Positions 6,373 through 59,200 of a DNA stretch of 64,000 nucleotides are shown one piece after another; position 1 is the stretch's first letter, and each line of letters begins with the position of its first letter. The notes under the pieces are model-generated. The model did not search any database. It saw only the letters and a list, made by a program, of their open reading frames with translations, and was not told the origin of the DNA. The DNA is from Antedon bifida (taxonomy: Eukaryota; Echinodermata; Crinoidea; Comatulida; Antedonidae), in the NCBI GenBank assembly GCA_963402885.1, contig OY727093.1, forward strand, positions 18,956,161 through 19,020,160, in the 5' to 3' direction. A program made the translations under genes and the position numbers.

Positions 6373-6903
6373 CACACACGCATTAAAAAGTTGAAAATGC
6401 GCTTTCTAATCAATTTCGCTCACGTTTCAGGTCATTGAGCATTTCAGCTCGTACATAGCATAGAAAGGCTGTTTTTGCAATTGATTTTTGTTTCTCAAGT
6501 GATCAATTCCATTCATATGTTGACTATCGGATGTCATCATATGGCCACCTGAATTTTGTAAATAAGATTTGCATCTGGCTTCTACATGCCCAAATTCCTT
6601 TAAAATTATCTTCCAGAATTGCTATCTTCATGTTTCATTTTAATGAAATCATCATGTTAAAATATTAGAATAAGTGAGTCTCGTAATTTCATCTATGCTA
6701 CACTGCATGTAATTATATAGTGTATTCTGTAATGTATACTGTATGTCATGTTGTGCTTAGTAGGTTTTGTGCATTAAGCGCTATATAAGATCGATGTACT
6801 ATTATGTCATAAGATGGCATTATCAATTTTCTGTGTTCAAATTTTAATATGCGTGCATGGTGCAATTGCGCGGATAAACTAACTCGTCCAAAGTGACGAG
6901 TTA
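6372..6903 (+). mobile_element. Degenerate non-autonomous Helitron relic cutting the NLR gene
   Basis: From 6372 the LRR sequence gives way to sequence matching the Helitron at 57.1-58.2 kb in the same orientation. Shared parts include a segment with ATGGCCACCTGAAT and the 3' GCGGATAA plus AACTCGTC/GACGAGTT hairpin at 6881-6903. The 5' part is missing and the terminal CTAG is not preserved. Confidence 0.65.
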
Positions 6904-35500: not shown

Positions 35501-38500
35501 TGTTATTTATGTATCGACCTCTTTTATAAAATATGTATGATGTATGGATTCAAAATAAAAACAAACAAGAGGGTGGCCTTTCCAGTCCCAGTGAAGGAAC
35601 TGATGATTGTAAAGGCACTCAAAGTTCTTTTCATATAACTTACTTCTCTCTGAGCTGTTGGATCCTAAAGACCTCCTAAACTGCATCCTTGAAGACAGAT
35701 GGTTGTCTGACAACATAGAGACTTTATCAAAAGAACCACTTAACGTTGTGGATTTCTCTATATCACTCACAGATTCTGATTTGCCTAAACGATAAAGATG
35801 ACAGATCGTTTTAATCAATAAAATAAAAAATACTAGTAACATTTCAATTTACACATTAGACAGCTTGTGAAATGCTGCCTGAGTTTAAAAGATTGTTTTG
35901 CAATTATATTCAATTCAAATACAACACATATTTAATTATGAATCACAAATAAAATTACTGACAAAAATGGAAATGTTGTGTGTAACAGTGGCTGAATCTG
36001 AATGGAATTACAAATAAAGCAAAAAGCCAAATCAAATCAATAAAGTAAAACAGTCGAAAATAAATAGCACAGCTTTTGGGTAACACTATAAACCCTTTCT
36101 CAGTGCAAGAGATAAGTAGGAATATTTAACTATGACTAAAACAATCAAAAATCAACTAAAAAGTCATTGGAATTGAGGTGATTTAAATCTTCAATTATTA
36201 GAAGAGAATAGGTAGATTCACATTCAACGTTGATCATGCTTCCACTGAACATTATAAAGCGAGTCATTTTATGTGAAACTAAGATTATCAAATAATGCGA
36301 TCAGTTTGATCTAGTGGAGCGCACAAGAGAAACATGATTAACTTATGTTGATATAAGTTTGCGGTACACCACGTATGTTAGTTCTGAAAAGAACTGTTGA
36401 GAAACAGAGAAACTCAACAGTTCTTTTCAGAAGTAACATACGTGGTGTACCGCAAACTTATATGAACATTTGATTTTGCCATGCAAACAAACCTTCAAAC
36501 AATATGATTAACTTTTGATTAACAGCATTTGATTTCAGCTTTTATGTAACACCTAAGCATATATAAGTCATGATATGATTTCTAGTGAGCTGTTTCTATT
36601 TATTGTGCTAAACCTTATCATGATAATAAATCATGATAATTACGGCACAATATTCTATATGAACATGCCTAATGAGAAGTAAACAGGCCCCTCTCGGCTT
36701 GAGTGAGCTCATGAAAGTGCCTGGGAAATATAACATTTTAGTATGTAGTCCTTTTTTTTTATTAAAGAATTTCTTTGTTTCAGGTGACAGATTTTGAAAC
36801 TTATTGATACACGAGAAAGGAATTCTTATTTTTAAAAATGTTACAGAATCATATACAATTGAAATTACCAAAAATATAAATCGCTTACCTAAAGCATTGC
36901 CTCCTTCATCGCTGATCTCTCTAAACCAGATAGGTTCCATGAGATCCTCATTAGGAAGAGACACTTTGTCACTTGCAAACGCTTCTTTTGGAAAATTACC
37001 ATGTCTTGCTGCCTGTGGAACAAAATTTCACAAATTTATATATCAAAAAGATATAGAGGCCCATTTACACTAGAATGATAACGATCAATGATAAATATGC
37101 ATTTTTCCTACATAAAGGAATCTAAAACAATATAATATTTTCACATGTTAAATCAAATGACGCCATGATTGGTTGAGCAATAATATCGTGATGGATTTAA
37201 AAAAAAATTGTATTAAGACAGTTTAAATGGTTAAATAAATATAATAAAATTATAATAATAAATATAATTATATTAAAAAACAATCCAACACAAACACATC
37301 TGAACCAAGTTTACAATCGGGACAGTGTAACTCACTCTTTCTAAAAACTGTATAAAATGAAGCTTAAACATACATTTTGTACACTATGGTGTACACATGG
37401 TGATCCCATGCTTAGGCACTTATCAATGCAAGTGCTCATTAATAATAATGTTAGCATGTTTATTTTGAGTTCTTACCTCACCCTGACAATAGAGAGCATA
37501 TTCATCTTGGAAAAGCTGCTCACTTCTTGTCACACATTCAATCCATTTAGCATCTAGAAGAGCCTGTCCAATTGCTACAGCTTGAACCCTGCAAAAACAA
37601 ATATACTCGGAGACTTGGAAAGACAATTACAGCTTTAAAGAAACTGGTCTGAAATCACTGAAACAATGACATTGGCACATCAGTAATATGATATTTCAAA
37701 AAGATTTATCTCTAAGCTATTATATTATTAGCAAGATATTAAACAGGCATATAAAATAATATAGATTTAAATTTATTTTATTTTATTTTATTTGGCATGG
37801 TTCAATATTACAGAAACCTGTGTATTTTTGAAAATTATAATTTTAAAATAAAAGATTTAAATGTTGTTATGTAGTTACTATTATATATTGTTGGTTGGTA
37901 AATTTGTGTTTTTCCATAATATTATTTCTGAATCTAATAAATATATGGCGCCATATGTAATATCTATCAATACTGCAATTGAGAAATAGAGTGTTTCCGC
38001 CATACCACACATCAATGCTGTTAAACATAAGATACCATGAAAGCTCCAGTGCCGTAAATGGTTGGATGCATATCAAGAAGAAGATTCTTGGTTCAATTTT
38101 GGTTGGGGTGACTTTTTCTCATTCTAACAGACAGAGTTTCCTTATGCCTGTAAATTTGTATTCATCATTAATATATAATAATATAAATAATATTTATAAT
38201 AATTATATTACAAAACTACTAACCTGTCTGTTGCTTTATCTTTATCCAGTAACCAATCAACAACCTGTGATCCTACTATACAATCAGGATAAGTACGAAG
38301 TCGATACCGATGACTTTGAAACTCAATACCATTGCCCGACTTGAGCATCAGTATCCAAAGATCTCTCAGTTGTATCGAGTCCTATATGATAAACAATTGA
38401 TTATGATAATTATGTAGTAGGCCAGGGCCTAACTAATTACTATAGATCTAGATTATAGTTTTTTCTCTTGATAATAGATAGAAACTGTAGGCCTAGATCC

Positions 38501-41500
38501 TAGGCCACCATACCAATTTCAACTAGAACAAATTTTTGAAAATCATTTCATATCGTTTTACATACATACATAGTTGTTTCATCTTGTTTGTAATATACAA
38601 ACTTAAGAAGCTGTTTACAATTTTCGTGCTATCAATAAATGACACAGAAGAAGCACAGAAGAACTAAACCTGTTGATTAAATTTGGTGATTGGTTCATAC
38701 AAAAACTCTCCCCTGTGGCTTGTTACGATCCAAATCCATTGTAATCAAAAGTATTAAAGATTCTAATACCAAACCACAATAGGTAACAATTGTGATATCG
38801 ATTTTGGATTGAAATGTGTGCGAACGAATGTTGAAATTGCAATACACATTCAAATTGTGTATAAGCAGAACAAGTAGATCAGTTAACTATGCCTATTAAT
38901 AACAATGACTGAAGCAACACCTTAAGGAGTAATTCTCGTTCATGTTGTACTACATTGCGTGTGTTTGCTGATTCAGTTGACGATGATGTTAGGTTACCAA
39001 CTTCAAATGGATTCCTTGCTCCTACAATTGACGACTCAACACTGCTTGCACTGTAGGTTCGTCTAAATATAATCAAATCAATCGAAAACATTTATATAAG
39101 TGAAAAAAGCAAAAATTTATATTTTATCTTACTATATGTAAATTTAATACTATAGTGATCAGATAGAAATTATCTGGAAAAATGTTCATCCCAGGTTGGA
39201 CTTGATGCAGAACGCAGTATGCTTCACTTATATACATGCTATTTTGGCATTTTTTTAGGTCTCACACATGCTTAGCTATATCTCATGCATCGATAAAAAC
39301 AATTGTTTTGAATTAAATTATGAAATTATGAATTAAGTTTGCCTAGGTCTATGTTTATATCTATTAAGTCAAAAATTAAACATATTTTGAAATGTTTAAA
39401 TATAGAGTGCACTTTGAGTTATTCAAATAAATTTGTATATACAGTGGTGCACTTTATATACAAATTTATTTTGTATCAATCATTGGCCAATGAAAAAGTT
39501 GGCAGGGAATATAAACTTCATACCCACATGACTCAGTGACCTGGGTAAATTACAATAGTCTACAATTCCACATTTCAGTACGGTGTCCCAGGTATTACAA
39601 CTACACAATTCAAAATTCAAAAAAGGGATATTAGAAACTCATATAAAGTTCATACTTGCGTCTGTATTTAAGATCTTCTTTTAATTTTGGTGAGACTGTA
39701 TCTAGAGTAAGCGTAGCTACCGCTGACAGGGCCGATTCTGTGACACTCTTCAAGTCATCTTGCCAGGCTTTTAAATCATTCTGTTCACTTGACTGGGCAT
39801 AACTTAGCACCACATTACAACAAGATGTACAAACACGAAGAGAACCTGTTCAATGGATATCATCAAATTACAAATCAAAGTACATTTTATTATAAATAAA
39901 AGAAAAATAATGCTAAAAAGGGAGGAACAACGTTTCGACTTTGAATTTCCTCAACTCCATCATAGAGTCATTCTCAAGTTTTCGAATTTCCTCAACTCCA
40001 TCATAGAGTCATTCTCAAGTTCAATTGAAGATTCAAGCAATTCAATTAGATAATGTAACACAAATTAAAGGTCAAAATTAAAAATGACAACAATGCTAAA
40101 CTGAGAGCTTAGCTTTTACAGAGTCAGATAGTATATTCAGACATGGTTTTAATTGTCTGATATACAACATTTCATAGATAAGGCAATCAAATTTGTTTTT
40201 ACATTTCCTGAGTATACTAAAACAAGAATCAATTCTATAATCAAATTGATACTAGAAACAATAACTTTAACTGAGACAATATCTGTCTTGTTAACAATCA
40301 TATGCACCCAACAGCGAGCTACTCGCCAATTCAGGATGGATATTATTCTAAATTATTGTGCTCATAAACTAATTCTTGGAAGCTTATTAGAGGGAGTTGA
40401 GAGTTACAACCCTGACACAGGTCAGAATTGAACCATGGACTTCAGGATTGGAAGGCAAGAATGTTAACCACCAAGCTACAGCTACACTACATTTATAATA
40501 TATGTTTTATCATGGGAAAAATTGGGGGGGGGGGGGGGATTTTTAGTAAATTTTATTTAAACAATTCTTAAATGAAAGGCATCACTTTTCTAACATAATG
40601 AGGTAGCTACTCCATTGGCTCAAAATGGTCCTGCCAATTGACTCTATTCTATCCACAATGCCTTTTGAAATTTAAGGGGCTCATCTTAAATGATATCAAT
40701 GTACGTTCTTACCAGTATAACCCATAACACTTCCGGGAACTTCCTGGTTACAGCAGCGACTACAGAAGATCTGCCCGCACACACGGCAGTGATGACGTCT
40801 TCTAAATGTAGTGAACTTGTCACCACATTCATAGCATTCCTTGCATTGACTGTCTGGCATCCAGTACTGTTTGAAGTCACTATCTCTGTATGCTTGGGGT
40901 GTCTACATGACGAGAGAAAGTCAATGCCCTTTTATGAATCTGTATCTATTATATATTGCTATAACAATGCCTCGCATTTGCTACTGAAGAAGCATAGAAA
41001 TTGTAGTGCTAGCATGTTGTTTGCTTTAAATGATGTTCCAAGTTCATTTAGTTAAAAAAAAAGTGTTAATTCTCTGATCATGGCTATTAAATGGCACATC
41101 TAGATCAACATATACAGTAGAATGCCTTCTTGCATTGACTATATATATATATATTGTTTTGTTATACAGTACAAGCCAATCTCAATTTTTTTTTATCTGT
41201 ACAAGGATTTCTAAGATTAAGCTTATTTTTTCTGCTATGGATATATTATGTGAAATGAAAAGATAAATGAATGAGTGAATATTATCAAATAAATATCAGA
41301 TTAATAAACTGTCAATCATGGACAATACCGTAACTGTAAGGTCGGTAAGGTCTAATGTATTAGTGTAGTATGGAGCAATCATTCATATGTACCTTGTACT
41401 CACATCTTATATTACGGTATATACTCTTCAGGAATATTCAGTTTTTTAAGAAACAAGAATACTGTTAAAGGTAACTGAAGGAAGAAAGTTTTACCTGGCC

Positions 41501-44500
41501 ACGCCTTTCAATTATTTTACTTAGATGATTCACAATACTGTTCAGACTTCTAGTTGGCATATCCTTCCAGCTTTCTTGTTTGCCAACTTTTGTCCAAATC
41601 TCATCATCATCATCATCATCTTCTACTTCAGTAAGAGGAGGTGGATTTGATACTTGGGATGGATCTGAATCAGTTGTGCTTCTCGACACCTGTTCTCTGA
41701 TATCTGGTGATGGTGACGCATTTCTAGAAGATGTTCGACTACTTGCTTGAGATCGTCCCCGTATTGGAGAGGCTTCTTGAGATACTGACGGGGACAGTCG
41801 CTTTTTTGGAGAAGTACTAGACTCTGGAATGGAAACAAATATTGTAGTGGTGTATGCATTTAAATTTAGGTGGACCATTCAGGTAAAGTTCACTAATAGA
41901 CTTTAGTTTATTGTCTGAACATTCTTGCCTGTTGTTGTTTTCGGACAAGGCTAGGAGGCACCGGATCCCTGAAAAGATCAAGACTTAACCGATGCTAACT
42001 GGGGTACTTACACACTGATCCCCAGTTAGTGGTGATGGTGTATCCCCATACTCCAGTTTGGGTGCTAGTTTGGTGTTTTGGTCTTTTTGTTCTCTTCCTT
42101 TTGTTTTCCACTCTTTCACTTTATTGTCAAGCGCATAGAGATATCGTTTATTTGCGCTACATAAATACATCTATTATTAGTATTATTTAAATACCAAAAC
42201 CAAATATGGAAAACTCTTTGAAGTATGAGGATCAGATTAATTAAAGCAAAATGCCCACTAAGCCTAAAATAACATAATAATAGTAATAACATAGAATAAG
42301 AGAGTTTCAGTAAACATTTCTTTACCTCATTATTCTTAAGACATTAATTAAACAAAAAACCTATTCCTTCACTTTGTTGTAGGAGAAGGATATTGGACAT
42401 GGTTTTTCTCTTTAAATGTGTTAAACTATGTTTTTGATAAATTGTTAACCTTATACTGTAATATACAATAATGGCAATGATTTTTTATCTTCATATGGAA
42501 TGTACAGAAACTTTCTGAATTTAAAAAATGTGAATTTCCGTGTGGATTTCACATCTTGCAAAATAGGTTCCTTGATTATCCAGCTGCTTAGAGCACTGAA
42601 TGTATTATGTTGTATACTGTCTGAGAACATCAAAATTGTCTATTTATATTTAAATACGCAAATCATAATAATAAATGGAAATGAAATATATATATTTTTC
42701 TATTTTAATGTTTTTGCTACAAACTAATTTGATGCATTTAATCTTGAATTTTATTTCTTTGCATTATAATATATTGTCTATTTATAGATTTTTATCCTGT
42801 AATTTACACCTTACCTCATTGTTATATCTAGTACACTGTAGATCTTAATGATAAACAATTGCTCTCAAATTGTGTGAAACTAATTTCTATTTGATATTTG
42901 TTTTGAGAAAAAAAGACCATATAGGTGATTACATAGAGAGTGAATTTTTGTGGATAGGTTTACACACAATGTACAATTCTTTTATTACCCTACAATACTA
43001 ATTACCTGAGCTGACACTGCATCCCTACAATACTAATTACCTGAGCTGACACTCCATCCCTACAATACTAATTACCTGAGCTGACACTCCATCCCTACAA
43101 TACTAATTACCTGAGCTGACACTCCATCCCTACAATACTAATTACCTGAGCTGACACTCCATCCCTACAATACTAATTACCTGAGCTGACACTCCATCCT
43201 ACGATACTAATTACCTGAGCTGACAATCCATCCCTACAATACTAATTACCTGAGCTGACACTCCATCCCTACAATACTAATTACCTGAGCTGACACTCCA
43301 TCCCTACAATACTAATTGACTGACCTGACACTCCATCCCTACACTACTAATTACCTGAGCTGACACTCCATCCCTACAATACTAATTACCTGAGCTGACA
43401 CTCCATCCTTACACTACTAATTACCTGAGCTGACACTCCATCCCTACAATACTAATTACCTGAGCTGACACTCCATCCTTACACTACTAATTACCTGAGC
43501 TGACACTCCATCCCTACAATACTAATTACCTGAGCTGACACTCCATCCCTACAATACTAATTACCTGAGCTGACACTCCATCCCTACAATACTAATTACC
43601 TGAGCTGACACTCCATCCCAACAATACTAATTACCTGAGCTGACACTCCATCCCTACAATACTAATTACCTGAGCTGACACTCCATCCCAACAATACTAA
43701 TTACCTGAGCTGACACTCCATCCCTACAATACTAATTACCTGAGCTGACACTCCATCCCTAAAATAGGTGAAATTACGGGACCCGTATTTTATTGTAATT
43801 TTTAACATCTTGACGGTTTCAAAATGAAATGCAAAAGTAGAAATTTCAGAATGAAATTATCTCAGCAACAACATATTAACGTGTAGAAGAAATTTTAATA
43901 CGTGAAATATTGGTGCGCGCTCTTTTAAATGTAATGAAATATAATGCAAAAGATGAAAATACGACTTTTTTTATTTAACTGGCCATATGATGACGTCACA
44001 ACATTCGATTGGCACAATTTTCACATGATTTTGTATCTACAATACAATAGCTTCCTGAAAACGTTTTAATCGTGATTATCACATTTTATTCTTACGAGCT
44101 ATAACAGATTAAAATTTACTGTAAAGATGAAATTAATGACCAACGTAATTTAAATTTTTAGGCATGATGACGTTAACAAAATTTAAAAAATTTTAATTCA
44201 TGCAAAAGATAGTTGATTGACCTAGAATATATTAAAATCGGGGTGAAAATGGACAACGAATAAGTGGAGATGCGCTCTATTAAATGCGATGAGCTATGAC
44301 GAAAGAGACAAAAATCCTATATTTTATATTCGCGTGGCCATACGATGATGTCACAATGTCCGGTTAGCCATATTAATGCATGATCCGATATCTACAACTC
44401 ATCAACTTCCAGAATATGTAATTAAAAAAGAGTTCTCCACGTAGTTTAGAATCTATGACTGTTTAAAAATAGGCATAATTTTGACGAATTTTTGAACTTT

Positions 44501-47500
44501 GTCACCAAAAACGCGCGCAAATTATCTAATTTGACGTGCTCGTATGACGTAATTTTAAGTTGAAATTGTTTAAAAGTTGGTAACATTACTAGAAAAGGCT
44601 GAAAAAACATAAATCACACGAAAAAAATATGTTTTTAACGCTACGTGTGCACCGCGTGCGTAAAAATTTTCGCGCGCGTGGGAATTTTTGACATGCTCAA
44701 AATGACATGAAACGCATAGAAAGTTGATTAGAAGTTGATTCTTCGCATTGTAAAATTTTAAACCCGCGTGCGCGCGTAACTTTTTGTAAAACATGCTATT
44801 TTTAATCCATAGAAAGTTTGCACTTGATATGACTTAGATTTTCACAAAGTGTCAAAACAAAATTATGTTTGTTTTTTAGTCTATGATCAATCATTGAAAT
44901 TCATAAAATCGCGCGTAAGTCACGTTGCACAACTCTGACGTCATTCAAAAATAGGAGGTGCACAAGTTCACGTAAATGTCGATATGTTGACAAAGTTACG
45001 ATATGTTGTGTTTGCACGTTTTAGAGAAACGCGACGTACAAAAATGACAGAAGGAAACTAGATTTGAACTGGTCACTTTGACGAGTTCGGGTTATCCACG
45101 CAAACGCAACATGCACATACTTTAAACTATGAACCTCGACAATTATTATGCCATCCTATGACATGAAATAAATATGTTTACAGTGCTGAATTGTACCTAT
45201 TATGTAGCATACACCATATTACAGTATTTTACAGAATAAACTGTATATGTTATATACAGTGTAGCATAGACAAAATTACGAGACCCATCTTTTAAATCCA
45301 ATTTTTAACACGATGACGTCATCAAATTGACATATAAAGATAACAATTTTAGAAGATAATTATCTAAAAATTTACATTAAAACAAATTTGAAGAATTTTG
45401 GGCACGTAAAAGTGAGATGCGCTCTCGTTTAAACGCAATGAACTTTTACGCAGGAGATGAAAATATGACTTTTTGAATTCAACTGGCCATATGATGACGT
45501 CACAACATCTGATTGGCAAAATATTCACATCAATTCGTATCTACAATCCAATAGCTTCCAGAAAACGTTTTAATCATGATTATCACTTTTTATTCTGACG
45601 AGCTATAACAGATTGAAATTTACTGTAAAGATGAAAATAAGTGACCCACGTTATTTACGTTTTTAGACATGATGACGTCATAAAAATTAAAATATTTTTA
45701 ATTCATGCGAAAGATAGTTGATTAACGTAGACAATATTAAAATTTCGGGGGAAATGGAATACCTATAACCGAGAAGCGCTTTGTTGAATTTGATGAGGAA
45801 TAACGAAAGAGTAAAAAATCCTATATTTTACATTCGTGTGGCCATACGATGACGTCATAACATCCGAGTGGTAAAGGTTCTGCATGAATTCATATCTACA
45901 ACATATCTGCTTTCATATTAAATTTAAAAAATTGGGGGTCGTGGATGATCCTGAGGAGCTATAATAGATTAAAAATAGGCTTAATTTTGACAATATGTTG
46001 TCACTTTTGCAACTAAAACGCGTGCAAATGGTCTAAATCAACGTGTTCGTATGACGTCATTTTAATTTGAAATGATGTAAATCTTTTTTAAAATGACTAA
46101 GAAAGGCTGTAAAATCATAATTCAAGAAAAAAACACATGATTTTCATGCTCCGTGCGCACCTTACGCGTAATTTTTTTCGCGCGCGTGGGAATTTTTGAC
46201 ATGTTCAAAATGTCATGATCAGCGTAGAAAGTTGATTAGAAATTAATTTTGCGCATTTTGAAATTTTAAATGCGCGTGCGCGCGTAACTTCTTGTGAAAC
46301 ATGCTATTTTTAATCCATAGAAAGTTTTCCCACGATATGACTTAAATTTTCAAGTGTCAATACAAAATGACTTTTGGTTTATAATCTATGATCAATCATT
46401 GAAATTCATAAAATTGCGCGTAACTTACGCTGCGCGACTCTAACGTCATATAACGAAGTTTCTTGCACATCTACAGCTACAGGTCAATCTTTTGACAAAG
46501 TTATACAATGTTATGTTGACAAGGATGAGAGATATGCATGCAACAAAATTCCGGGAAAGAAAGAAGAACAAAGAAGATGAAAAAAAAAAGAAGATATTTA
46601 CAATCACAAGGGTTATCCGCAACTTCTAAGTTGCGGATAAGTTGATAACCAATGAAGATGAAAAAAAAGATATTTACAATCACATGGGTTATCCGCAACT
46701 AAGTTGCGGATAACCAATGAAAAAAAAAGATATTTACAATCACATGGGTTATCCTGCAACTAAGTTGCGGATAACCAAAAAAAAATATGATGAAACAGGA
46801 CGATTACAAGGAGTTATCCGCTACTAAGCGGATAACTAAAAAGTTACGATATGTTCTGTTTACACACTAACTAGACATGAAACTCGTCACTTTGACGAGT
46901 TAGTTATCCGCACGACAAACACCACATGCACGTCATACGTTGGAATATTGCACACAGAAAAAGATTATGGCATTAAGACCTGAACTGAAGAATATCATAT
47001 CTTGTTAGTGCTGAATTCTGTCTATTTTGTGTCATATAGTATATACAGTATAATCTGTATACATATTACATACAGTGTAGAATAGGTGAAATTACGGGAC
47101 CCACCGTTTATTCCAATTTTTAACATGGCGACGGTATTAAAATTAAACACTAAGATAGCAATTTCGGAAGGACATTATCTCACCAACAACATATTAACGT
47201 GTACAAGAAATTTGAATACGTAGAATATGGATGTGTGCTCGTTTAAATGTGATGAACTATGACGCAAAATATGAAAATACGACTTTTTTTATTCAACTGG
47301 CCATATGATGACTTCACAACATCCGATTGGCAAAATGTTCACATTAATTTGTATCTACAGTCCAATAGCTTCCAGAAAACGTTTTAATCATAATTATCAC
47401 TTTTTATTCTTACGAGCTATAACAGATTAAAATTTACTGTAAAGATGAAATTAATAACCCTGTTAATTATAATTTTTAGGCATGATGACGTCATAAAAAT

Positions 47501-50469
47501 TAAAATATTTTTAACTCATGCGTAAGATAGTTGATTGACCTAGACAATATTAAAATCTCGGAGAAAAAGGAATACAGATAGGCGTGATGCGCTCCATTGA
47601 ATATGATGAGCAATAACGAAAGAGACAAAAATCCTATATTTTTCATTCGTGTGGCCATACGATGACGTCACAATGTCCGGTTAGCCATATTGATTCATGA
47701 TCCGATATCTACAACTCATCAACTTCCAGAATATGTAATTAAAAAAAAGTTCACCTCGTTGTTTAGAATCTATGACTGTTTAAAAAAAGGCATGATTTTG
47801 CCGAATTTTGACAAATTTTTTAACTTTTTCATCAAAAACGCACGTAAATTATCCAATTTAACGTGCCCGTATGACGTAATTTTAAGTCGAAATTGTTTAA
47901 AAGTTGGTAAAATTACTAGAAAAGGCTGAAAAAACATAAATCACGCAAAAAAAATTGTTTTCAACGCTACGTTCGCACCATGCGCGTAAAAAAATGCGCG
48001 CGCGTGGGAATTTTTTACATGCTTAAAATTACATGAAACGCGTAGAAAGTTGATTAGAAATTGATTTTTCCTATTTTGAAATTTTAAACGCGCGTGCGCG
48101 CGTAACTTCGTGTGAAACATGCCATTTTTTCCCCTTAGTCAGTTAGCGCAAGATATAACTTAAACTTTTGTCAAGTTTCATATTAAATTGTTATATGGTT
48201 TTCGATCTATGTTAAATACGCGAAATTCGTAAAAACGCGCGTAAGTCATGTTGCGCAACTCTGACGTCATTCAAAATAGGAGGTGCACAATTTCACGTAA
48301 ATGCCCACATGTTGACAAAGCTATGAAATGTTATGTTTACACGTTTTTGAGTTACGTGAGACAAAAATGACAGAAAGAAGAATACAGACTAGACATGAAA
48401 CTCGTCACTTTGACGAGTTAGTTATCCGCACGACAAACGCCACGCGCATGTCATACGTTAGAATTTTGCACAGAAAAAGATTATGGCATTATGACCTGAT
48501 CTGAAGAATATGATATGTTGTTAGTGCTGAATTCTGTCAATTTTGTGTCATATAGTATATACAGTATAAACAGTATAATCTGTATACATATTACATACAG
48601 TGTAGAATAGGTGAAATTACGGGACCCGCCATTTATTCCATTTTTTAACATGGCGACGGTATCAAAATGAAACACTAAAATAACAATTTCGGAAGGATAT
48701 TATCTCAGCAACAACATATTAGCGTGTAGAAGAAATTTGGATACGTAAAATATAGATGCGCGCTTTTTTAAATGTGATGAACTATGATGCAAAATATGAA
48801 AATACAACTTTTTTTATTCAACTGGCCATATGATGACGTCACTACATCTGATTGGCAAAATGTTCACATGAATTCGTATCTACAATCCAATAGCTTCCAG
48901 AAAACGTTTTAATCGTGATTATCACATTTTATTCTTACGAGCTATAACAGATTAAAATTTACTGTAAAGATAAAATTAATGACCCACGTAATTTAAATTT
49001 TTAGGCATGATGACGTTATAAAAATTAAAATATTTTTAACTCATGCGAAAGATAGTTGATTGACCTAGATAATATTAAAATCTCGGAGAAAATGGAAGAC
49101 GGATAAGCGTGATGCGCTCCATTGAATGTGATGAGCAATAACGAAAGAGACAAAAATCCTATTTTTTACATTTGTGTGGCCATACGATGACGTCACAACA
49201 TCCGTAAGGAAAAAATTCTGCATGAATTCATATCTACAACATATCTGCTTACATATTAAGTTAAAAAACTCGGGGGTAACGGTTGATCCTGAGGAGCTAT
49301 AATAGATTCAAAATAGGCATAATTTTGACAATATTTTGTAACTTTTGCAACTAAAACGCATGCAAATGGTCTAAATCAACATGTACGTATGACGTCATTT
49401 TAATTTGAAATGATGTCAATCTTTTTAAAAATGACTAGGAAAGGCTGGAAAATCACAATTTAATAGAAAAAACATGATTTTCATGCTGCGTGCGCACTGC
49501 ATGCGTAAAATTGTTCGCGCGCGGGAAATTTTGACATGCGCAAAATGTCATGAATGGCGTAAAAAGTTGATTAGAAATTAATTTTGCGCATTTTAAAATT
49601 TTAAATGTGCGTGCGCGCGTAACCAAAAAAAAAAGATGATGAAACAGGACAGTTACAAGGAGTTATCCGCTGAATGCGGATAACTAAAAAAGAGAAAAAA
49701 AAAAAAAAAAAAAAAGATCCTGACAATAACAAGGGGTTATCCGCCAAGTGCGGATAACCAATTACCTGAGCTGACACTCCATCCTTACACTACTAATTAC
49801 CTAAGCTGACACTCCATCCCTAAAATACTAATTACCTGAGCTGACACTCCATCCCTACAATAATAATTACCTGAGCTGACACTCCATCCCTACAATACTA
49901 ATTACCTGAGCTGACACTCCATCCCTACAATACTAATTACCTGAGCTGACACTCCATCCCTACAATACTAATTACCTGAGCTGACACTCCATCCCTACAA
50001 TACTAATTACCTGAGCTGACACTCCATCCCTACAATACTAATTACCTGAGCTGACACTCCACCCCTACAATACTAATTACCTGAGCTGACACTCCATCCC
50101 TACAGTACTAATTACCTGAGCTGACACTACATCCCTACAATACTAATTACCTGAGCTGACACTCCATCCCTACAATACTAATTACCTGGGCTGACACTCC
50201 ATCCCTACAATACTAATTACCTGAGTTGACACTCCATCCCTACAATACTAATTACCTGAGCTGACACTCCATCCCTACAATACTAATTACCTGAGATGAC
50301 ACTCCATCCCTACAATACTAATTACCTGACCTGACACTCCATCCCTACAATACTAATTACCTGAGCTGACACTCCATCGAAACAGTTTTAGGAATGAGAA
50401 TCCTTGGTTCTTATCCTCTTCAGGCGATAAAGGCTTAAACCATGTGATCTTCTGATTGCTACTTGACAT
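11719..50469 (-). CDS. PIKFYVE: PIKFYVE, 1-phosphatidylinositol-3-phosphate 5-kinase (34 coding exons, C-terminus not found)
   Basis: PIKFYVE phosphorylates PI3P to PI(3,5)P2 on endosomal and lysosomal membranes, working with FIG4 and VAC14 (family knowledge). I traced 34 exons from 50527 down to 11719 on the minus strand; every junction has AG/GT borders and matching phase, giving about 2090 residues from the ATG at 50469-50467. Order: FKPL-motif N-terminus, serine-rich linker, FYVE finger (exons 3-4), DEP (exons 6-7), TCP-1/chaperonin-like domain (exons 11-17), cysteine-rich CHK-homology region (exons 17-19), coiled linkers (exons 20-31), PIP-kinase domain (exons 32-34). The human protein has about 2100 residues, so the exons seen lack only the last ~150: the DLKGS, IIDYSLL and activation-loop parts. 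I searched the minus strand down to position 1 by eye and found none. Introns are about 0.1-3 kb except the first (8.5 kb). Exon 22 and the first intron carry unusual tandem repeats. Confidence 0.96.
12193..12296 (-). CDS. PIKFYVE: PIKFYVE coding exon 33 (PIP-kinase domain)
   Basis: Encodes DDRFILKQMSRLEFQSFQEF, including the FILKQ motif with the ATP-binding lysine, then GPQYFKYLTQAYEKN. Confidence 0.97.
12754..13408. mobile_element. MITE with about 37-bp terminal inverted repeats
   Basis: The left end GGGTATGTTCAGACTCACAG is mirrored at the right end with one mismatch over about 37 bp. Both flanks read ATA, a possible 3-bp target duplication. At 655 bp with no open frame, it is a non-autonomous DNA transposon. 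Its right end lies 17 bp from the PIKFYVE exon 32 donor. Confidence 0.88.
13426..13602 (-). CDS. PIKFYVE: PIKFYVE coding exon 32 (PIP-kinase domain start)
   Basis: Encodes FADNNAKFYCRIYYAEEFRN, then GEEAFIRSLSACMSWIARGG and KSGSRF. The ARGGKSG glycine-rich loop is intact. Phase 1 at both ends. Confidence 0.97.
13640..14418. repeat. Minisatellite of 30-bp then 34-bp units, next to PIKFYVE exon 32
   Basis: About a dozen 30-bp units (TATCTACTGTGGGCTAGTAT...) up to about 14040, then about eleven 34-bp units that differ by an extra AATG. It starts about 38 bp upstream of the exon 32 acceptor. An open frame of repeated MYLLWASILI on the plus strand is a by-product. Confidence 0.95.
14685..14762 (-). 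CDS. PIKFYVE: PIKFYVE coding exon 31
   Basis: Encodes DYDGVFSKSYDVFSSKTEPS and PHIEV, reaching the PHVELQF motif that precedes the kinase domain in vertebrates. Phase 1 at both ends. Confidence 0.9.
15375..15545 (-). CDS. PIKFYVE: PIKFYVE coding exon 30 (disordered linker)
   Basis: Encodes RVLQFLRTKSSSSLLVPPTK, in the place of vertebrate GMLSFFRGTAGKS, and later VDTVVYHVTDSEGGNKSLSD. Phase 1 at both ends. Confidence 0.88.
15963..16126 (-). CDS. PIKFYVE: PIKFYVE coding exon 29
   Basis: Encodes SEPYKIQLSEMQQKTSQSTS and then KRKLARESDDSSSSMARLT. It follows the conserved IIAYALS segment, as the vertebrate CKEYRNALEEL does. Confidence 0.87.
16178..16848. repeat. 15-bp minisatellite next to PIKFYVE exon 28 donor
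   Basis: About 45 units of GACAATGATGAGGAA with AAAGAC and GGAAGGC variants, ending about 6 bp from the donor GT of exon 28. Long open frames on both strands follow from the unit length being a multiple of three and are not taken as genes. Confidence 0.95.
16855..16950 (-). CDS. PIKFYVE: PIKFYVE coding exon 28
   Basis: Encodes DEHHPTPPCTVVPVIVRDQE and PSTIIAYALS (last residue completed by exon 29), matching VPIAVCEKEPSSIIAFALS. A 15-bp minisatellite starts about 7 bp inside the intron beyond its donor. Confidence 0.94.
17365..17533 (-). CDS. PIKFYVE: PIKFYVE coding exon 27
   Basis: Encodes SVAGTAMKNVFNFLSSSNFT, which aligns with STMKAIFANLLPGNSYNPI in vertebrates. Phase 1 in, 2 out. Confidence 0.91.
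17908..18024 (-). CDS. PIKFYVE: PIKFYVE coding exon 26 (acidic linker)
   Basis: Encodes DEIKKSEEKTIGNGSETKLN and DTNDEVGVDITNG. Phase 1 at both ends; only splice sites and open frame support it. Confidence 0.78.
18241..19890 (+). mobile_element. ACCTCCGCC-ended element, copy 2, with internal duplication
   Basis: Bounded by TACCTCCGCC and GGCGGAGGTA. About 100 bp (with AAGCCGGCGAGCAGTCTTAA) occurs twice inside, near 18500 and 19440, and each is preceded by a TTTGCCAAGTA/GTTTGTTTG segment, so the element is probably a composite of two nested or tandem copies. It lies in the PIKFYVE intron between exons 25 and 26. Confidence 0.65.
20064..20144. repeat. Inverted repeat with about 31-bp arms
   Basis: Left AAGGTCAATCAGGACAAAAA and right TTTTTGTCCAGATTGACCTT pair around a short CCCGAGG loop. 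Foldback or MITE remnant in the intron between exons 24 and 25. Confidence 0.75.
20227..20355 (-). CDS. PIKFYVE: PIKFYVE coding exon 25 (disordered linker)
   Basis: Encodes DHSQASPVFSSDLLADMSCS and ends VSSHNGEDKRG. Phase 1 at both ends. It corresponds in position to the vertebrate Ser-rich linker before STMKAIFANLLPG. Confidence 0.8.
22073..22640 (-). repeat. Dispersed repeat R1, copy B
   Basis: Reverse-complement match to copy A over its full length (for example ACCGACAGAAAACGT and ATAAGGTAGG segments). It lies in the PIKFYVE intron between exons 24 and 25. Family unknown; a DNA transposon remnant is possible. Confidence 0.7.
23168..23354 (-). CDS. PIKFYVE: PIKFYVE coding exon 24 (disordered linker)
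   Basis: Encodes SPSNVTPGVSHSPDNKGVSQ, then RLKRAATWSNELDLKPSGGD. Assigned from open frame, splice sites and phases; it lies in a poorly conserved linker. Confidence 0.82.
23826..24028 (-). CDS. PIKFYVE: PIKFYVE coding exon 23
   Basis: Encodes MLLDIEDSITMTKRIIHETV and VTWNIRLKELFQLVNSDRNE, corresponding to SLCEVLQAWNNRLQDLFQQEK. It ends with a basic, Ser-rich run and closes in phase 0. Confidence 0.92.
24550..24925 (-). repeat. 93-bp in-frame tandem repeat over the 3' end of PIKFYVE exon 22
   Basis: About four copies, the last degenerate. Each unit encodes RTRYLSQQDPDRLTEMAEHL-type sequence and holds an AG acceptor-like site (TTAATGCAG) 18 bp after a GTAAGT donor. The gap is too short for an intron between neighbouring copies, so either read-through or choice of one outer donor is expected. 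Confidence 0.85.
24842..24959 (-). CDS. PIKFYVE: PIKFYVE coding exon 22, shortest form; may extend to 24656
   Basis: Encodes SDQVHFRKHIDTMQSKLEIL and then DKLAEMAEHLLDKP. Its end is part of a 93-bp tandem repeat. Because 93 is a multiple of three, the frame stays open through two further copies, each ending at the same phase-1 donor (CCTG/GTAAGT): ends at 24842, 24749 or 24656 all splice in frame to exon 23. The sequence does not show which end is used. Confidence 0.82.
25270..25381 (-). CDS. PIKFYVE: PIKFYVE coding exon 21 (helical linker)
   Basis: Encodes TLLFSAVLENTLSFKDVDNN followed by LAKKISNLQQLSK. Conservation is weak but phases match (2 in, 0 out), and its position fits the coiled-coil linker. 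Confidence 0.82.
25545..25740 (+). mobile_element. SINE fragment (TTTAAAGAACCAAG core)
   Basis: CAGTGTACAC, then CTTTAAAGAACC and TTTTGAGTAGGGGTTA match 54441-54530 and, more loosely, 35.2 kb. Confidence 0.45.
25886..25999 (-). CDS. PIKFYVE: PIKFYVE coding exon 20
   Basis: Encodes YSSIVLREICFPPYPIYLKC and continues YAEYLKMIQRLSR, corresponding to YSPIRLLEVCVPLPKIFIK after the cysteine-rich region. Confidence 0.9.
26969..27147 (-). CDS. PIKFYVE: PIKFYVE coding exon 19 (cysteine-rich region)
   Basis: Encodes SMSFAKYLELRFYGMEYNRR and AEPCPHSLHRHHYQYFGYLN. The vertebrate segment reads SMSFAKYLELRFYGHQYTRR. Confidence 0.97.
27603..27774 (-). CDS. PIKFYVE: PIKFYVE coding exon 18 (cysteine-rich region)
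   Basis: Encodes YKCPSETCDASMVDHVRRFV and SILSWSWCRRCKQ, matching YQCPSMFCDTPMVHHIRRFV and LTYSWCRICKQ. The conserved CxxxxC, histidine and CxxC positions are kept. Confidence 0.97.
28135..29549 (-). CDS. PIKFYVE: PIKFYVE coding exon 17 (large exon: end of TCP-1 domain, linker, start of cysteine-rich region)
   Basis: At 1415 bp this is by far the largest exon, as in vertebrate orthologues. It opens with YHSRLEMSFLMDEFAMP, the end of the chaperonin-like domain. It then runs through roughly 250 poorly conserved acidic and Ser-rich residues to ILADYRARGSRI and NPWTVVMDFYGNNDIPLGLF, ending LERYCF. The acceptor used (AAAG/GTT) keeps the conserved VKKV segment in frame. Confidence 0.96.
30313..30407 (-). 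CDS. PIKFYVE: PIKFYVE coding exon 16 (TCP-1-like domain)
   Basis: Encodes TLMFFEGCPSKLGCSIILRG and ADQFELTK, nearly identical to TLMFFEGCPQHLGCTIKLRG in vertebrates. Confidence 0.97.
30858..30981 (-). CDS. PIKFYVE: PIKFYVE coding exon 15 (TCP-1-like domain)
   Basis: Encodes SVVARIGRFTDADLVTTVDQ and SIGSCHSFSIQQFQLPQ. It corresponds to the vertebrate LERISRMTQGDLVMSMDQL and GTCHKFYMQIFQLP segment. Confidence 0.94.
31770..31910 (-). CDS. PIKFYVE: PIKFYVE coding exon 14 (TCP-1-like domain)
   Basis: Encodes EHEYLKNYVHKISTLKPTVL and VVEKSVARLAQDFLLNCDIT, matching REFLKNYVQRIVDVRPTLVLVEKTVSRIAQD. Phase 0 at both ends. Confidence 0.97.
32413..32517 (-). CDS. PIKFYVE: PIKFYVE coding exon 13 (TCP-1-like domain)
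   Basis: Encodes PRILILKSAVEHQRVEHKFS and SIEPIVLQ, corresponding to PKILLLKCSIEYLYREETKF and DPIVLQ. Thirty-five whole codons. Confidence 0.95.
32537..32570. repeat. (ATT)n microsatellite
   Basis: Ten or so ATT units, directly upstream of PIKFYVE exon 13. Confidence 0.9.
32920..33060 (-). CDS. PIKFYVE: PIKFYVE coding exon 12 (TCP-1-like domain)
   Basis: Encodes MDIRYYVHIKKVAGGSLSDC and VVCTKNVAHRS, corresponding to MDIRQFVHIKKIPGG and VCTKNIAHKKM. Forty-seven whole codons. Confidence 0.96.
33446..33681 (-). CDS. PIKFYVE: PIKFYVE coding exon 11 (start of TCP-1-like domain)
   Basis: Encodes GWLDAEDLNEENGEKMAMER and LSSANYKHLVALLHQLLETE, clearly matching vertebrate LREENGEKQAMERLLSANHNH. Phase 1 in, 0 out. 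Confidence 0.96.
34342..34434 (-). CDS. PIKFYVE: PIKFYVE coding exon 10
   Basis: Encodes TGDNGTGPWELMFHQHSVPN and DPDEHQLR. Phase 1 at both ends. A decayed copy of its 5' half lies about 120 bp upstream in the preceding intron (34550-34596). Confidence 0.88.
34550..34596 (-). pseudogene. Decayed partial copy of PIKFYVE exon 10 with its acceptor
   Basis: Matches 34389-34440 (GACCAGTTCCATTATCACCT in the parent, GACCGTTCCATTATCACCTA here) including the ACACCTACAA acceptor side. A base is lost and the 3' half is absent, so it should not be a usable exon. Confidence 0.75.
35085..35400 (+). mobile_element. tRNA-derived SINE with conserved core
   Basis: A tRNA-like head (B-box-like GGGTTCGAGG), then GATGGGATGTAAAGCCGTTG, GTCCCGTGTAC and GTTAAAGAACTTGG. 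This core recurs in several metazoan SINE families. It lies in the PIKFYVE intron between exons 9 and 10. Confidence 0.65.
35644..35784 (-). CDS. PIKFYVE: PIKFYVE coding exon 9 (serine-rich linker)
   Basis: Encodes KSESVSDIEKSTTLSGSF and ends RRSLGSNSSER. Little is conserved, but both splice sites and phases fit (1 in, 1 out). Confidence 0.87.
36347..36467. repeat. Long hairpin, arms about 55 bp
   Basis: Left arm from GTTGATATAAGTTTGCGG, right arm ending CCGCAAACTTATATGAAC, loop GAAACAGAGAAAC. Related to the element at 50902-51067. Confidence 0.85.
36889..37012 (-). CDS. PIKFYVE: PIKFYVE coding exon 8
   Basis: Encodes AARHGNFPKEAFASDKVSLP and continues EPIWFREISDEGGNALG, corresponding to the vertebrate PSWFKDIKFD region after DEP. 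Phase 0 in, 1 out. Confidence 0.92.
37477..37588 (-). CDS. PIKFYVE: PIKFYVE coding exon 7 (DEP domain, second half)
   Basis: Encodes VQAVAIGQALLDAKWIECVT and then LFQDEYALYCQGE, the end of the DEP fold. Exactly 37 codons plus the shared nucleotide; phase 0 at its end. Confidence 0.96.
37985..38150 (+). mobile_element. Degraded copy of the 3.3-kb SINE in a PIKFYVE intron
   Basis: Shares GTTTCCGCCATACCAC, the ATACCATGAAAGC stretch, the tRNA-like GCATATCAAGAAGAAG segment and GGGTGACTTTTTCTCATTCT with the copy at 3.3 kb. It lies between exons 6 and 7. Confidence 0.6.
38224..38381 (-). CDS. PIKFYVE: PIKFYVE coding exon 6 (DEP domain, first half)
   Basis: Encodes LRDLWILMLKSGNGIEFQSH followed by RYRLRTYPDCIVGSQVVDWL. 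This matches the vertebrate DEP core (EFQDHRYWLRTHPNCIVG) closely. It ends in phase 2. Confidence 0.96.
38921..39062 (-). CDS. PIKFYVE: PIKFYVE coding exon 5 (linker before DEP)
   Basis: Encodes RTYSASSVESSIVGARNPFE and continues to HERELLLK. Phases fit both neighbours (2 in, 0 out). The donor AAG/GTGTTG is a weaker match than the others, so the 3' edge is slightly less sure. Confidence 0.85.
39656..39845 (-). CDS. PIKFYVE: PIKFYVE coding exon 4 (end of FYVE finger)
   Basis: Begins GSLRVCTSCCNVVLSYAQSS, supplying the last cysteine pair of the FYVE finger; it corresponds to GDLRACTYCRKIALSYAHS in vertebrates. The rest is a helical linker ending DLKYRRK. Confidence 0.95.
39942..40021 (+). repeat. 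40-bp tandem duplication
   Basis: GAATTTCCTCAACTCCATCA and the following bases occur twice in a row. The first copy is preceded by CAACGTTTCGAC, a sequence often seen at transposon ends. Confidence 0.85.
40370..40490 (-). mobile_element. tRNA-like SINE head in a PIKFYVE intron
   Basis: Minus-strand AGCTGTAGCTTGGTGGTTAA and GGTTCAATTCTGACC resemble tRNA A and B boxes. Same family as 11568-11640; between exons 3 and 4. Confidence 0.5.
40713..40902 (-). CDS. PIKFYVE: PIKFYVE coding exon 3 (FYVE zinc finger)
   Basis: Encodes YWMPDSQCKECYECGDKF, then RRRHHCRVCG and FCSRCCNQEV. The WxxD motif, the basic RRHHCR PI3P-binding patch and the paired zinc cysteines are all present, so membrane targeting should be intact. 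The exon ends in phase 1 within MGYTG. Confidence 0.97.
41495..41823 (-). CDS. PIKFYVE: PIKFYVE coding exon 2 (serine-rich linker)
   Basis: Rich in Ser, Pro and Arg, with an acidic run (EVEDDDDDDEIW), ending LSKIIERRGQ. This matches the region before the FYVE finger, where vertebrates have LSTVLKRLKEIMEGK. It joins exon 1 in phase 1, making a Glu codon across the junction, and ends in phase 0. Confidence 0.9.
42988..43762 (-). repeat. 35-bp satellite, left block (about 22 units), derived from a PIKFYVE splice donor
   Basis: Each unit on the minus strand carries GTGTCAGCTCAG/GTAATTAG, identical to the exon 1 border at 50361. Tandem and homogeneous, with a few single-base variants. It ends partway through a unit where the Helitron array begins. 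Confidence 0.95.
43763..45057 (-). mobile_element. Helitron copy h1 (3' end missing)
   Basis: Starts inside the element at AATAGGTGAAATTACGGGAC, so its 3' hairpin is absent; the 5' end abuts the CTAG of the next copy at 45058. Confidence 0.75.
45058..46870 (-). mobile_element. Helitron copy h2 (full length, with internal palindromic repeats)
   Basis: Read on the minus strand, the 3' end is a hairpin with one mismatch (AACTCGTC...GACCAGTT) followed by CAAATCTAG and host-side T, the Helitron hallmark. Near the 5' end (46560-46850) is an array of short palindromes. No Rep/helicase frame is present. Confidence 0.8.
46560..46860. repeat. Tandem palindromes inside Helitron h2
   Basis: Four units of about 60 bp, each with GATATTTACAATCACA and a palindrome of 14-bp arms (GGTTATCCGCAACT) around one A; the first unit has a longer spacer. 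A shorter variant (GTTATCCGCTACTAAGCGG) follows, and relatives close h4 near 49660-49757. Confidence 0.85.
46871..48388 (-). mobile_element. Helitron copy h3 (full length)
   Basis: The minus-strand 3' end has the perfect hairpin AACTCGTCA/TGACGAGTT then TCATGTCTAG. The 5' end begins TCTGTATTCTTCTTTCTG immediately after the CTAG of h4, an exact CTAG/TC joint. Confidence 0.82.
48389..49757 (-). mobile_element. Helitron copy h4 (5' part replaced by palindromic repeats)
   Basis: The 3' hairpin and CTAG at 48389-48392 are intact. The body runs to about 49621, then A-rich sequence and GGTTATCCGC palindromes lead into the 35-bp satellite. Confidence 0.78.
49758..50375 (-). repeat. 35-bp satellite, right block (about 17 units), running into PIKFYVE exon 1
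   Basis: Same unit as the left block. The last unit merges with the end of exon 1 (50361-50375), so the exon's own donor is one member of the array. Confidence 0.95.
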
Positions 50470-50527
50470 AGTATTTTTCTCTATCTTCTGTTTTGTTTTA
50501 GACTCTGAAAGTTGTTTATCATCATAA
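50361..50527 (-). CDS. PIKFYVE: PIKFYVE coding exon 1 (N-terminal, FKPL motif)
   Basis: The peptide includes WFKPLSPEEDKNQGFSFLKL, which aligns with the vertebrate N-terminal HFKPLTPDQDE segment. I chose the ATG at 50469-50467 because it is the only in-frame Met before this motif. The frame stays open upstream to an AG acceptor after a T-rich tract, so a further upstream coding exon is possible. The exon ends in phase 1 at CTCAG/GTAATTAG, the sequence amplified in the adjoining 35-bp satellite. Confidence 0.88.
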
Positions 50528-56200: not shown

Positions 56201-59200
56201 GCTAAAGAAGTCTAGGGATGGTTGGTTGTCCTCTTGATTGGCCTGTTTTCCAGTCTATGTTGAGTTGCGGCAAATCTAAACTAGATTAAACAATTTTCCA
56301 GGAAAAGGGGTAATCAGGCTTTGCGTTGATGTAGTTCAAATCACTGAAATGTTAATGATTGAAGGAAAATGGGTAGAAGTCAATGATAGAAATTGTTAAA
56401 ACAATTCAATGATTGCAATCTTGATGTGGATACGATCATTAAAACTGACCAATCAAATAGTTCCCAAATTAAGCCATTGTAGTTTATGAAAAAAATAGTT
56501 GCTTTTTCACAAATCTGCACCTTGGGATCAACTCCACACTTTTCCTGGCAGTGTAAAAGAGGTATAAAAATAAGTAACTATAGTCTATACTGGCTTTTGA
56601 CACTAGAACTACAATGTAACCTTTCACTAACAATAATATTAATAATAATCTTTCAGTGAAGATTTTATTAGACAGAAAATACTTTTCTAAGTCTATTTAA
56701 CCTGAAATATGTTTTGATTTAATCTCAGAATTTCCGAAAAATGGAAATTGAAAGTAGAGGAACTAAAGGTTATCAGTGTCGGCCAGGTCATTGATGATGA
56801 AAGGTCACTAGCTGATCAACGAGTCAGTCATGGGTCACAGGTCATGGTTATCATTTTGACAGAAAATGAAGTTTCAGCCAATGCAGATGAAGCTAAGAAA
56901 ATGAGACTGTCTCGTACAAAAGAAGTTGCAGAGGTGCTTGCGAACAGAAGCAAAGGTTTGAAATGGTTTATTTTATAAGGCCTGTATTCACAAGGCATTA
57001 CTAAATATGAACTAGATCTTTATTTATTTACTTCCCTCTTGTTATTTGGTTATCATATATATATTATTTTATTGTCACAATCTTTTTTTTTCTTTTTTTT
57101 TTTTTTTCTATATTCTTCTTTCTTTCCACGAATTTTGTTGGCAGCGTATCTCTAATTCTGGCCAACATAAGATTGTATAACTTTGTCATAAGATTGACCT
57201 GTAGCTGTAGATGTGCAAGAAACTTTTTTTTATGACTTTAGAGTTGCGCAACGTGACTTACGCGCGATTTTATAAATTTCAATGATTGATCATAGATTAA
57301 AAACCAAAAGTCATTTTGTATTGACACTTGGTGAACATTTAAGTCATATCAAGGGCAAATTTTCTATGGATTAAAAATGGCATGTTTTACAGAAAGTTAC
57401 AAAGAAAGTTAAAATTTCAAAATGCGAAAAATCAATTTCTAATCAACTTTCTATACGTTTCATGTCATTTTGAGCATATCAAGAATTCCCACATGCGTGC
57501 GCACATAGCGTTAAAAACATACTTTTTTCGAGTGATTTATGTTTTTTCAGCCTTTTCTAGTAATTTTTACCAACTTTTAAACAATTTCGACTTAAAATCA
57601 CGTCATACGAGCACGTGGAATTGGATAATTTGCACGCGTTTTTGATGAAAAAGTTAAAAAATTCGTCAAAATTATGCCTTTTTTTAAACAGTCATAGATT
57701 CTAAACTACATGGTGAATTTTATTTTTTATTACAAATTCTGAAAGTAGATGAGTTGTAGATATCGAATCATGCATCGATATGGCTAACCGGACATTGTGA
57801 CGTCATCGTATGGCCACTCGAATATAAAATAGAGGATTTTTGTCTCTTTCGTCATAGCTCATCACATTTAATAGAGCCCATCTCCACTTATCCGTAATCC
57901 ATTTCCCCCCATTTTTTTATATTGTCCAAGTCAATCAATTATCTTTCGCATGATTTACCATTTTTAAAATTGTGATGACGTCATCATGTTCAAAAGCGTC
58001 AATAACTTTGGTCATTTTTCACCTATTCTGCACTGAATGTAGTACATATACAGTATAGTGTTATTCTGTATACTTAGACGTGACACAAAATAGAGAGCAC
58101 GTTAAAATTATTTCAATGGCATAATCGTTTTTCTGTGCGCAATATTCTAATGTATGACGTGCACGTGGCGTTTGCACTGCGGATAACCTAACTCGTCCGT
58201 AGTGACGAGTTCAAATCTAGTTGGAGTTAGTTTTATACTATGGAGGGATATTGTACTACTACCATGTGAGAGTCGTGGGTTTGAGACACCTGTCTGTGCC
58301 ATATTGCCTCTATCGATATGTCACAAAGTGCGAGTCTTGTCTACCTGTGCCTGCGACTTAAACATGTAGGAAAAGGAAATATGCATAAACAGTACATTAT
58401 GTATATCCAAGCATTTAATCATTCAAGCCCCACATCCCAATATAAACTCAACAATATATCTATGAGTAAGAACTCGTTCTGGGCATATCAATGAATTTCA
58501 TAAACAAATACTTGTTTGTTAACCATCAAATATACAATAAATACATTACAACATGTTAAATAAAAATTCAATTCAAAGTCATCAATCGAAAAATGTATTT
58601 TTATTATTTAACAGAAGATCATGACAAGTATCATCTTCAAATTGCGGATCAAACAGGCAAGCCAATTGACCTTCCCAAGGAAGAGAGCCGTGCATTGTCA
58701 GTCGCGCTCACGTTAAATGAGAGAGGACGAGCATGTTTGAAACGCAAAGAATATGGAGAGGCATTGCTTGTGCTACTTGAAGCGGACAAAGAGTTCAAGT
58801 AAGTTTATTTCTTATTACATTTTGTTACACCTGAAACAATAAATGCCCTAATGGACTCTACCATTGTGTGAGTGGGGTGGGGATAACAAGGATTGGTGAT
58901 ATGGCTATACAATAATAATTAAGTTGTAAACGAAGCAGTTTAGTTACCTTTTGCTCTATGGTAAAGTATAGAAATCTGTATTATCACTATTACTATCACA
59001 ATACTACTATGAAAACTGCTATATCCTTTATTCAATATTAATTTAGACACAGATATACAGTAGATATACATAAAAATTGTTTGCGTAGGCAGATATAAAT
59101 AGGCTGTGAATAAAAGTACATTAAAAGGCTATTATACTTTACATACCATTTCTTCACATAGCAATCATCCTTCTTGTAGTGCAGTTTTTTGGGCAGTTAC

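Follow-up and report, generated by a model that had tools for sequence, protein, structure and literature searches.

Minisatellite-like tandem duplications of exon-intron borders, known as mirages, have been described in amphioxus at Adh3 and at the globin genes BflGb6 and BflGb9 (PMC3087553). As described in that report, their units measure 10-160 bp, many of them contain splice signals, and the repeats show length instability, with RT-PCR suggesting normal splicing (PMC3087553). A further mirage in amphioxus TnC, with imperfect copies in PGBD5, is also reported to leave splicing undisturbed (PMC3902484). In humans, the name of a 31-bp VNTR of CBS, c.1444_1467+7(16_21), indicates 24 exonic and 7 intronic bases in 16-21 copies (PMC2630376), and it is listed under exon 13-intron 13 in a review table (PMC1395315). 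From human segmental duplications, 27 intron modifications arising from variable tandem repeats, with an average unit of 30 bp, are reported as kept after inspection, and these border repeats are reported to generate alternative splicing (PMC2812944), so that the harmlessness of donor arrays cannot be assumed. Related phenomena are the dual-specific AGGT splice sites reported in human tandem-repeat genes, UBC and VCX3A (PMC10809524), and intron gain by tandem AGGT duplication, presented as the Rogers model (PMC3087553) and in a potato RdRp case (PMC4974935). Among the titles, abstract openings and passages of this literature, we recognised no whole-genome count of donor arrays.

Here we describe a PIKFYVE splice donor that is present in 40 tandem units in the crinoid Antedon bifida, within a 64-kb stretch of DNA that was analysed as a whole (the window). 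An earlier note on this DNA knew of no described satellite of this kind; the amphioxus mirages, the CBS VNTR and the human border repeats are of the same kind, and the PIKFYVE array thus belongs to an already described class of repeat. Like the mirages, as far as their descriptions go, it consists of tandem units lying across an exon-intron border and carrying splice signals, but the mirages occur at both donor and acceptor sides with units of varying size, whereas only donor-side repeats were found here, with up to 40 copies of 35 bp. As in the CBS VNTR, exon end and intron start are combined within each unit; the VNTR is reported to vary among people, whereas the PIKFYVE array is known from one assembly. 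The human border repeats are likewise described as minisatellites at exon-intron borders with units of about 30 bp, but with about four repeats on average and in recent primate paralogues, compared with 40 units in PIKFYVE. An AG/GT in each tandem unit is shared with the reported dual-specific genes; in UBC and VCX3A, however, donor and acceptor use takes place within the gene's own repeats, whereas the PIKFYVE repeats are intronic and their use as acceptors is unlikely. Tandem copies with splice signals are also the starting point of the Rogers model as presented, which makes a new intron, whereas the PIKFYVE array appears to have lengthened an intron.

Results

Gene model of the PIKFYVE locus

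Judged by homology, the gene that carries the array is PIKFYVE on the minus strand, in agreement with the earlier note. A long open frame matches 1-phosphatidylinositol 3-phosphate 5-kinase (PDB 7k2v) over 39 residues (residues 9-47 of the 485 searched), and open frames for a FYVE zinc finger and a DEP domain lie on the same strand (Table 1). A Pfam search of 28137-29588 gave no match, and a PDB search with the first two predicted exons joined gave no match to PIKFYVE, returning one weak unrelated hit (E 0.77). The reading frame of the predicted first coding exon ends in ...LFRWSVSS, and its N-terminal motif presumably resembles that of human PIKFYVE. Because the acceptor-like TTTTTTTTTTCAG directly precedes position 50527, the transcript may have one exon ahead of this first coding exon. 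Unit 1 of the array takes in the last 17 nt of the coding exon; its predicted donor, at the 50361/50360 border, is in phase 1 and would join the next coding exon in frame. With this donor, the first intron measures 8,537 bp, comprising 7,373 bp of array and insert and a remainder of about 1.2 kb.

Table 1 Features of the window and of the other donor arrays that begin at an exon. Positions refer to the window unless a contig is given.
Feature	Position	Strand	Details and basis
35-bp array, exon-side block	49760-50378	-	TRF, 17.7 copies, 96% matches
35-bp array, intron-side block	42988-43766	-	TRF, 22.3 copies, 96% matches
Array unit 1	50343-50377	-	17 exonic nt, then donor CAG/GTAATTAG, 18 intronic nt in all
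Dispersed repeat inside array	43767-49757	.	5,991 bp; self-comparison and genome search
PIKFYVE first coding exon, predicted	50361-50527	-	167 nt, ATG at 50469; sequence and frame
PIKFYVE next coding exon, predicted	41495-41823	-	Acceptor CATTCCAG/AG, donor CCAG/GTAAAA; in frame with unit-1 donor
FYVE zinc finger open frame	40699-40902	-	Pfam PF01363, E 2.5e-17
DEP domain open frame	38214-38378	-	Pfam PF00610, E 7.1e-10
Long open frame, PIKFYVE exon region	28131-29588	-	phmmer to PDB 7k2v, E 1.5e-07
NACHT domain open frame	3803-4909	+	PF05729
NACHT frame, then 192-bp tandem repeat	3803-6394	+	Repeat reads as leucine-rich protein
Tandem array, 34 bp x 24	13643-14419
Tandem array, 15 bp x 44	16185-16848		Open in several frames
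Tandem array, 93 bp x 4	24544-24924		Overlaps minus-strand open frame
L010, TIMELESS			PDB 7pfo, E 2.7e-14; Pfam below cut-off
L058, axonemal dynein heavy chain			PDB 8j07 (dynein axonemal heavy chain 5), E 1.3e-22
L062, DHX8			PDB 6hys, E 9.8e-20
L079, PTPA	C8:7106950-7107900		PDB 2ixm, E 9.2e-18
L069, FIP1			PDB 7zyh, E 6.5e-05; Pfam below cut-off
L067, ASC channel	C10:27.447 Mb		PF00858, E 4.3e-08
L068, ASC-channel paralogue of L067	C10:27.485 Mb		Likeness to L067
L070	C10:30896180-30897130		No Pfam match; acceptor, open frame and donor read by eye
L063, L074, L081			No Pfam match; acceptor, open frame and donor read by eye

Anatomy of the array

The tandem 35-bp units were found where the earlier note had placed them, and in the number, about 40, that it had given. 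On the gene strand, 39 units are near full length and one is truncated at the edge of an insert; a search of the window for CAGCTCAGGTAATTAG at up to two mismatches returned 39 occurrences, where 100 shuffles gave 0.01 on average. The minus-strand consensus is ATGGAGTGTCAGCTCAG/GTAATTAGTATTGTAGGG, to which 22 of the 39 near-full-length units are identical, with a mean pairwise difference of 3.7% among the 39. Unit 1 runs on directly from the exon, matches the consensus exactly and spans the predicted exon-intron border with its 35 bp, in support of the earlier reading that the repeated segment includes the end of a PIKFYVE exon together with its donor. The donor 9-mer CAGGTAATT is intact in 38 of the 40 units and the GT in 39, and coordinates decrease along the array, the gene being on the minus strand. 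Distinct variants fall inside the donor 9-mer in 3 of 19 cases, compared with about 5 expected by chance, numbers too small to tell whether the 9-mer is spared.

The array had been taken to run without interruption from 42988 to 50375. It consists instead of two blocks, which together make up about 1.4 kb and are separated by 5,991 bp of another, dispersed repeat. Self-comparison of this insert revealed internal units of about 1.5 kb with roughly 78-84% identity; its longest open frame is 87 codons, and no terminal inverted repeat or target duplication was recognised at its ends. A 1.5-kb probe detected relatives of up to 96% identity, both elsewhere on contig C1 and on eight further contigs; at least 79 matches were recorded, with 17 of the 4,120 first-look candidates scored. 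The family combines a unit length of about 1.5 kb with runs of A and short GGTTATCCGC...GCGGATAACC-type hairpins, and repeats of this type are also seen at 57069-58222 and 6592-6902 of the window, on the other strand.

A two-site variant, at unit positions 28 and 33, is present in the exon-side unit adjoining the insert and also in intron-side units. Because this double variant occurs on both sides, a single array existed before the insertion. Variant types alternate along the array, which points to the copying of multi-unit blocks during its growth.

The unit in the rest of the genome

An exact 18-mer of the unit gave 30 matches in the 315.6-Mb assembly, and a 105-bp probe of units gave 20 genome matches at E<=10, all of them within the PIKFYVE array; these probe searches skip simple repeats and very common words. 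Satellite DNA would be expected as arrays at many places, and in the 315.6-Mb genome the unit was found in the PIKFYVE array only. No satellite elsewhere in the genome turned up in these searches, which favours expansion in situ at the exon border over the capture of a satellite. The earlier note, which ascribed the array to slippage at the exon border, had set down beforehand that units away from PIKFYVE would count against this; they were looked for genome-wide and not found. Growth at the border thus stands as the better account, whereas slippage as the process behind it is conjectural.

Donor choice and its consequences

The sequence retained past the unit-1 donor reads GGT AAT TAG, giving a stop at the eighth retained base. 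Use of any donor after unit 1 would introduce this in-frame TAG, and therefore only unit 1 gives an intact PIKFYVE message. The reading frame suggests that splicing most likely uses the unit-1 donor, the other units being carried as intron. Transcripts with variable numbers of units, which had been suggested as one outcome of the array, would not be a source of variable PIKFYVE proteins, the extra units meeting the TAG.

Duplex energies were computed with the U1 end sequence, giving -8.1 kcal/mol for the unit donor, -8.3 kcal/mol for the donor of the next exon and -14.0 kcal/mol for a perfect site. Because the first two are nearly equal, the decoy units would be about as strong as a genuine PIKFYVE donor. 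The further suggestion of the earlier note, that the array titrates or buffers U1, found no support.

Other donor arrays that begin at an exon

The genome was surveyed with three donor motifs at minisatellite spacing, and the upstream flanks of 33 distinct arrays were inspected: 11 of CAGGTAA, 14 further ones of CAGGTAAG and 8 of AAGGTAAG, the CAGGTAA and CAGGTAAG sets being drawn from among the matches listed. Twelve of the 33 start at the donor of an exon, as judged partly by eye and, for CAGGTAA and CAGGTAAG, from among the matches listed; recurrence at several genes of one genome is thus a further trait shared with the mirages. Homology supports seven of the twelve, PIKFYVE and six others (Table 1). 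Automatic exon calling by codon score separated poorly, with 4 of 131 null sites scoring above 5 and real exons, such as that of PTPA, missed. The score being too weak, exons were called either by homology or from acceptor, frame and donor as judged by eye.

By reading, the exon contributes some 28-41 bases per unit in the dynein, DHX8 and L081 arrays, 17 in PIKFYVE and about 10 or fewer in the others. Use of the next AGGT donor would lead to a stop in 9 of the 12 arrays, to a shifted open frame in L063 and, for L070 and L079, to an insert that stays open and in phase; the outcome for the dynein array was read by hand, its spacing having escaped automatic detection. The units of the PTPA array (L079) and of L070 measure 24 bp and 21 bp, respectively, and are in phase and without a stop, so that splicing from a donor further along would lengthen the protein by repeated peptides (GKDVLKFK and VSPCNSQ, respectively).

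Several further arrays were noted in the survey. The two ASC-channel paralogues carry related donor arrays, reflecting either an array copied with its gene or two independent births. A thirteenth array, L055, follows an EGF-like exon as judged by eye and begins within the intron, a few tens of bases beyond the exon. Among the reversed controls, a 35-bp array at C1:18846000-18848500 contains the donor-like CTACAAG/GTGGGTTTGC, with no clear exon seen upstream.

Chance expectation and controls

The single CAGGTAAG octamer occurs 10,895 times in the genome and the reversed octamer 5,627 times, a 1.9-fold ratio; from this excess, about 48% of single CAGGTAAG octamers are estimated to be true donors. 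In an inspection by eye, 7 of 20 single CAGGTAAG sites appeared exon-like and 3 were uncertain, the 20 sites being hand-picked, not blind, among the first 100 that were listed for a single contig, with an obvious periodic repeat avoided. Among the matches listed, 8 of 15 CAGGTAAG arrays were exon-anchored, again by eye and not blind, or 7 of 14 if the ASC paralogues are counted once. Because 8 of 15 is close to about 48%, donor arrays seem to arise without regard to splicing and not to be visibly purged at real donors, a comparison of small numbers judged without blinding. At C1:514200-556177, CAGGTAAG sites lie on alternating strands every 7 to 9 kb or so, which points to a large tandem repeat.

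Three copies of CAGGTAA at this spacing gave 335 matches compared with 176 for the reversed motif, and 7 arrays compared with 5 on contig C1. For CAGGTAAG the corresponding matches numbered 139 and 27, with at least 15 arrays, in a list reaching into C14, against 6 reversed arrays on C1-C14 (10 in the complete reversed list), a ratio not far from the 1.9-fold of the single octamers. For AAGGTAAG there were 33 matches against 62 reversed, and 2 of 8 arrays were anchored. Given these reversed controls and the single-octamer ratio, we do not claim a general excess of donor-bearing minisatellites.

The acceptor motif TTTGCAG in three copies gave 390 matches against 31 reversed, and the matches listed included one coding-looking repeat and one family present at several places. 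In none of eight such arrays whose downstream flanks were inspected did the array adjoin a recognisable exon. This asymmetry between donor and acceptor is not predicted by neutral birth, unless few TTTGCAG motifs are true acceptors.

Discussion

The reading to which we give high probability is that the PIKFYVE array is a minisatellite of the mirage type. It builds on the anatomy of the array, its single location, the consequences for the reading frame and the other exon-anchored arrays, the last identified by homology or by eye; the mechanism of growth, the choice of donor and near-neutrality are its presumed elements. In the proposed pathway, a short segment of the exon-intron border would have been duplicated in place, followed by expansion into the intron through slippage or unequal exchange. 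A dispersed repeat would have landed inside the array later, splitting it. Splicing would proceed from the unit-1 donor, leaving the remaining units as nearly neutral intron cargo. The same process would have struck other donors of the genome, the anchored share of CAGGTAAG arrays being about that expected if minisatellites ignore splicing.

A rather unlikely alternative is that the array tunes gene dose: the identical donors would compete, messages from later donors, with their early stop, would be degraded, and copy number would thereby set the amount of protein, with U1 binding possibly also protecting the intron from early polyadenylation. The 9-mer kept in 38 of 40 units and the closeness of the decoy energy (-8.1 kcal/mol) to that of the next-exon donor (-8.3 kcal/mol) are in keeping with such competition, as is the human CBS VNTR, which has the same layout and is linked to reduced CBS activity in the title of its original paper. 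However, the 3 of 19 variants inside the 9-mer, where about 5 were expected, are too few to give a sign of selection for keeping the donor; the exon-anchored share of CAGGTAAG arrays does not exceed the expected one; and the amphioxus cases reportedly leave splicing undisturbed. Still less credible is the use of each AG/GT as both acceptor and donor, by which the intron would be removed stepwise or new small exons would form. All intact units do contain CAG/GTAA, and human tandem-repeat genes reportedly have an excess of introns spliced at dual-specific AGGT sites (PMC10809524), but by reading the unit lacks a pyrimidine tract ahead of CAG and is therefore expected to be a poor acceptor.

Two other explanations concern where the array came from and whether it is genuine. 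Had a pre-existing satellite been inserted at the border and the exon taken its end from it, the last 17 coding bases would be array sequence, as they are; the absence of the unit from the rest of the genome in our searches makes such a capture highly improbable. We assign an equally low probability to an assembly artefact affecting the size of the array or the presence of the insert. Tandem arrays are hard to assemble and a single assembly was examined, but each block has private variants, one unit bordering the insert is incomplete, and other members of the insert's repeat family are present elsewhere in the genome. We thus retain growth in place of a mirage-type minisatellite, with the array most likely representing near-neutral intron baggage.

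Beyond PIKFYVE, there is about an even chance that the arrays constitute a class of exon-donor minisatellites affecting at least 12 genes, some likely essential, with at least three near-identical donors each and up to 40 in PIKFYVE. Births would be about as frequent at real donors as at look-alikes, and a multiplied donor would do next to no harm, since the spliceosome would dependably choose the first in a row of identical sites; the arrays of L079 and L070 could add repeated peptides.

The occurrence of a dozen or so donor arrays within a single genome is more interesting than the PIKFYVE array alone. Series of identical 5' splice sites are usually laboratory constructs, designed to test which member of the row is chosen. 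With natural arrays in about a dozen genes, RNA reads could answer the question of choice among identical splice sites directly, and comparison of individuals could indicate whether copy number alters gene output. The duplication of a donor to 40 copies without obvious purging suggests a bearing on the lengthening of introns and on the ways in which new ones might arise.
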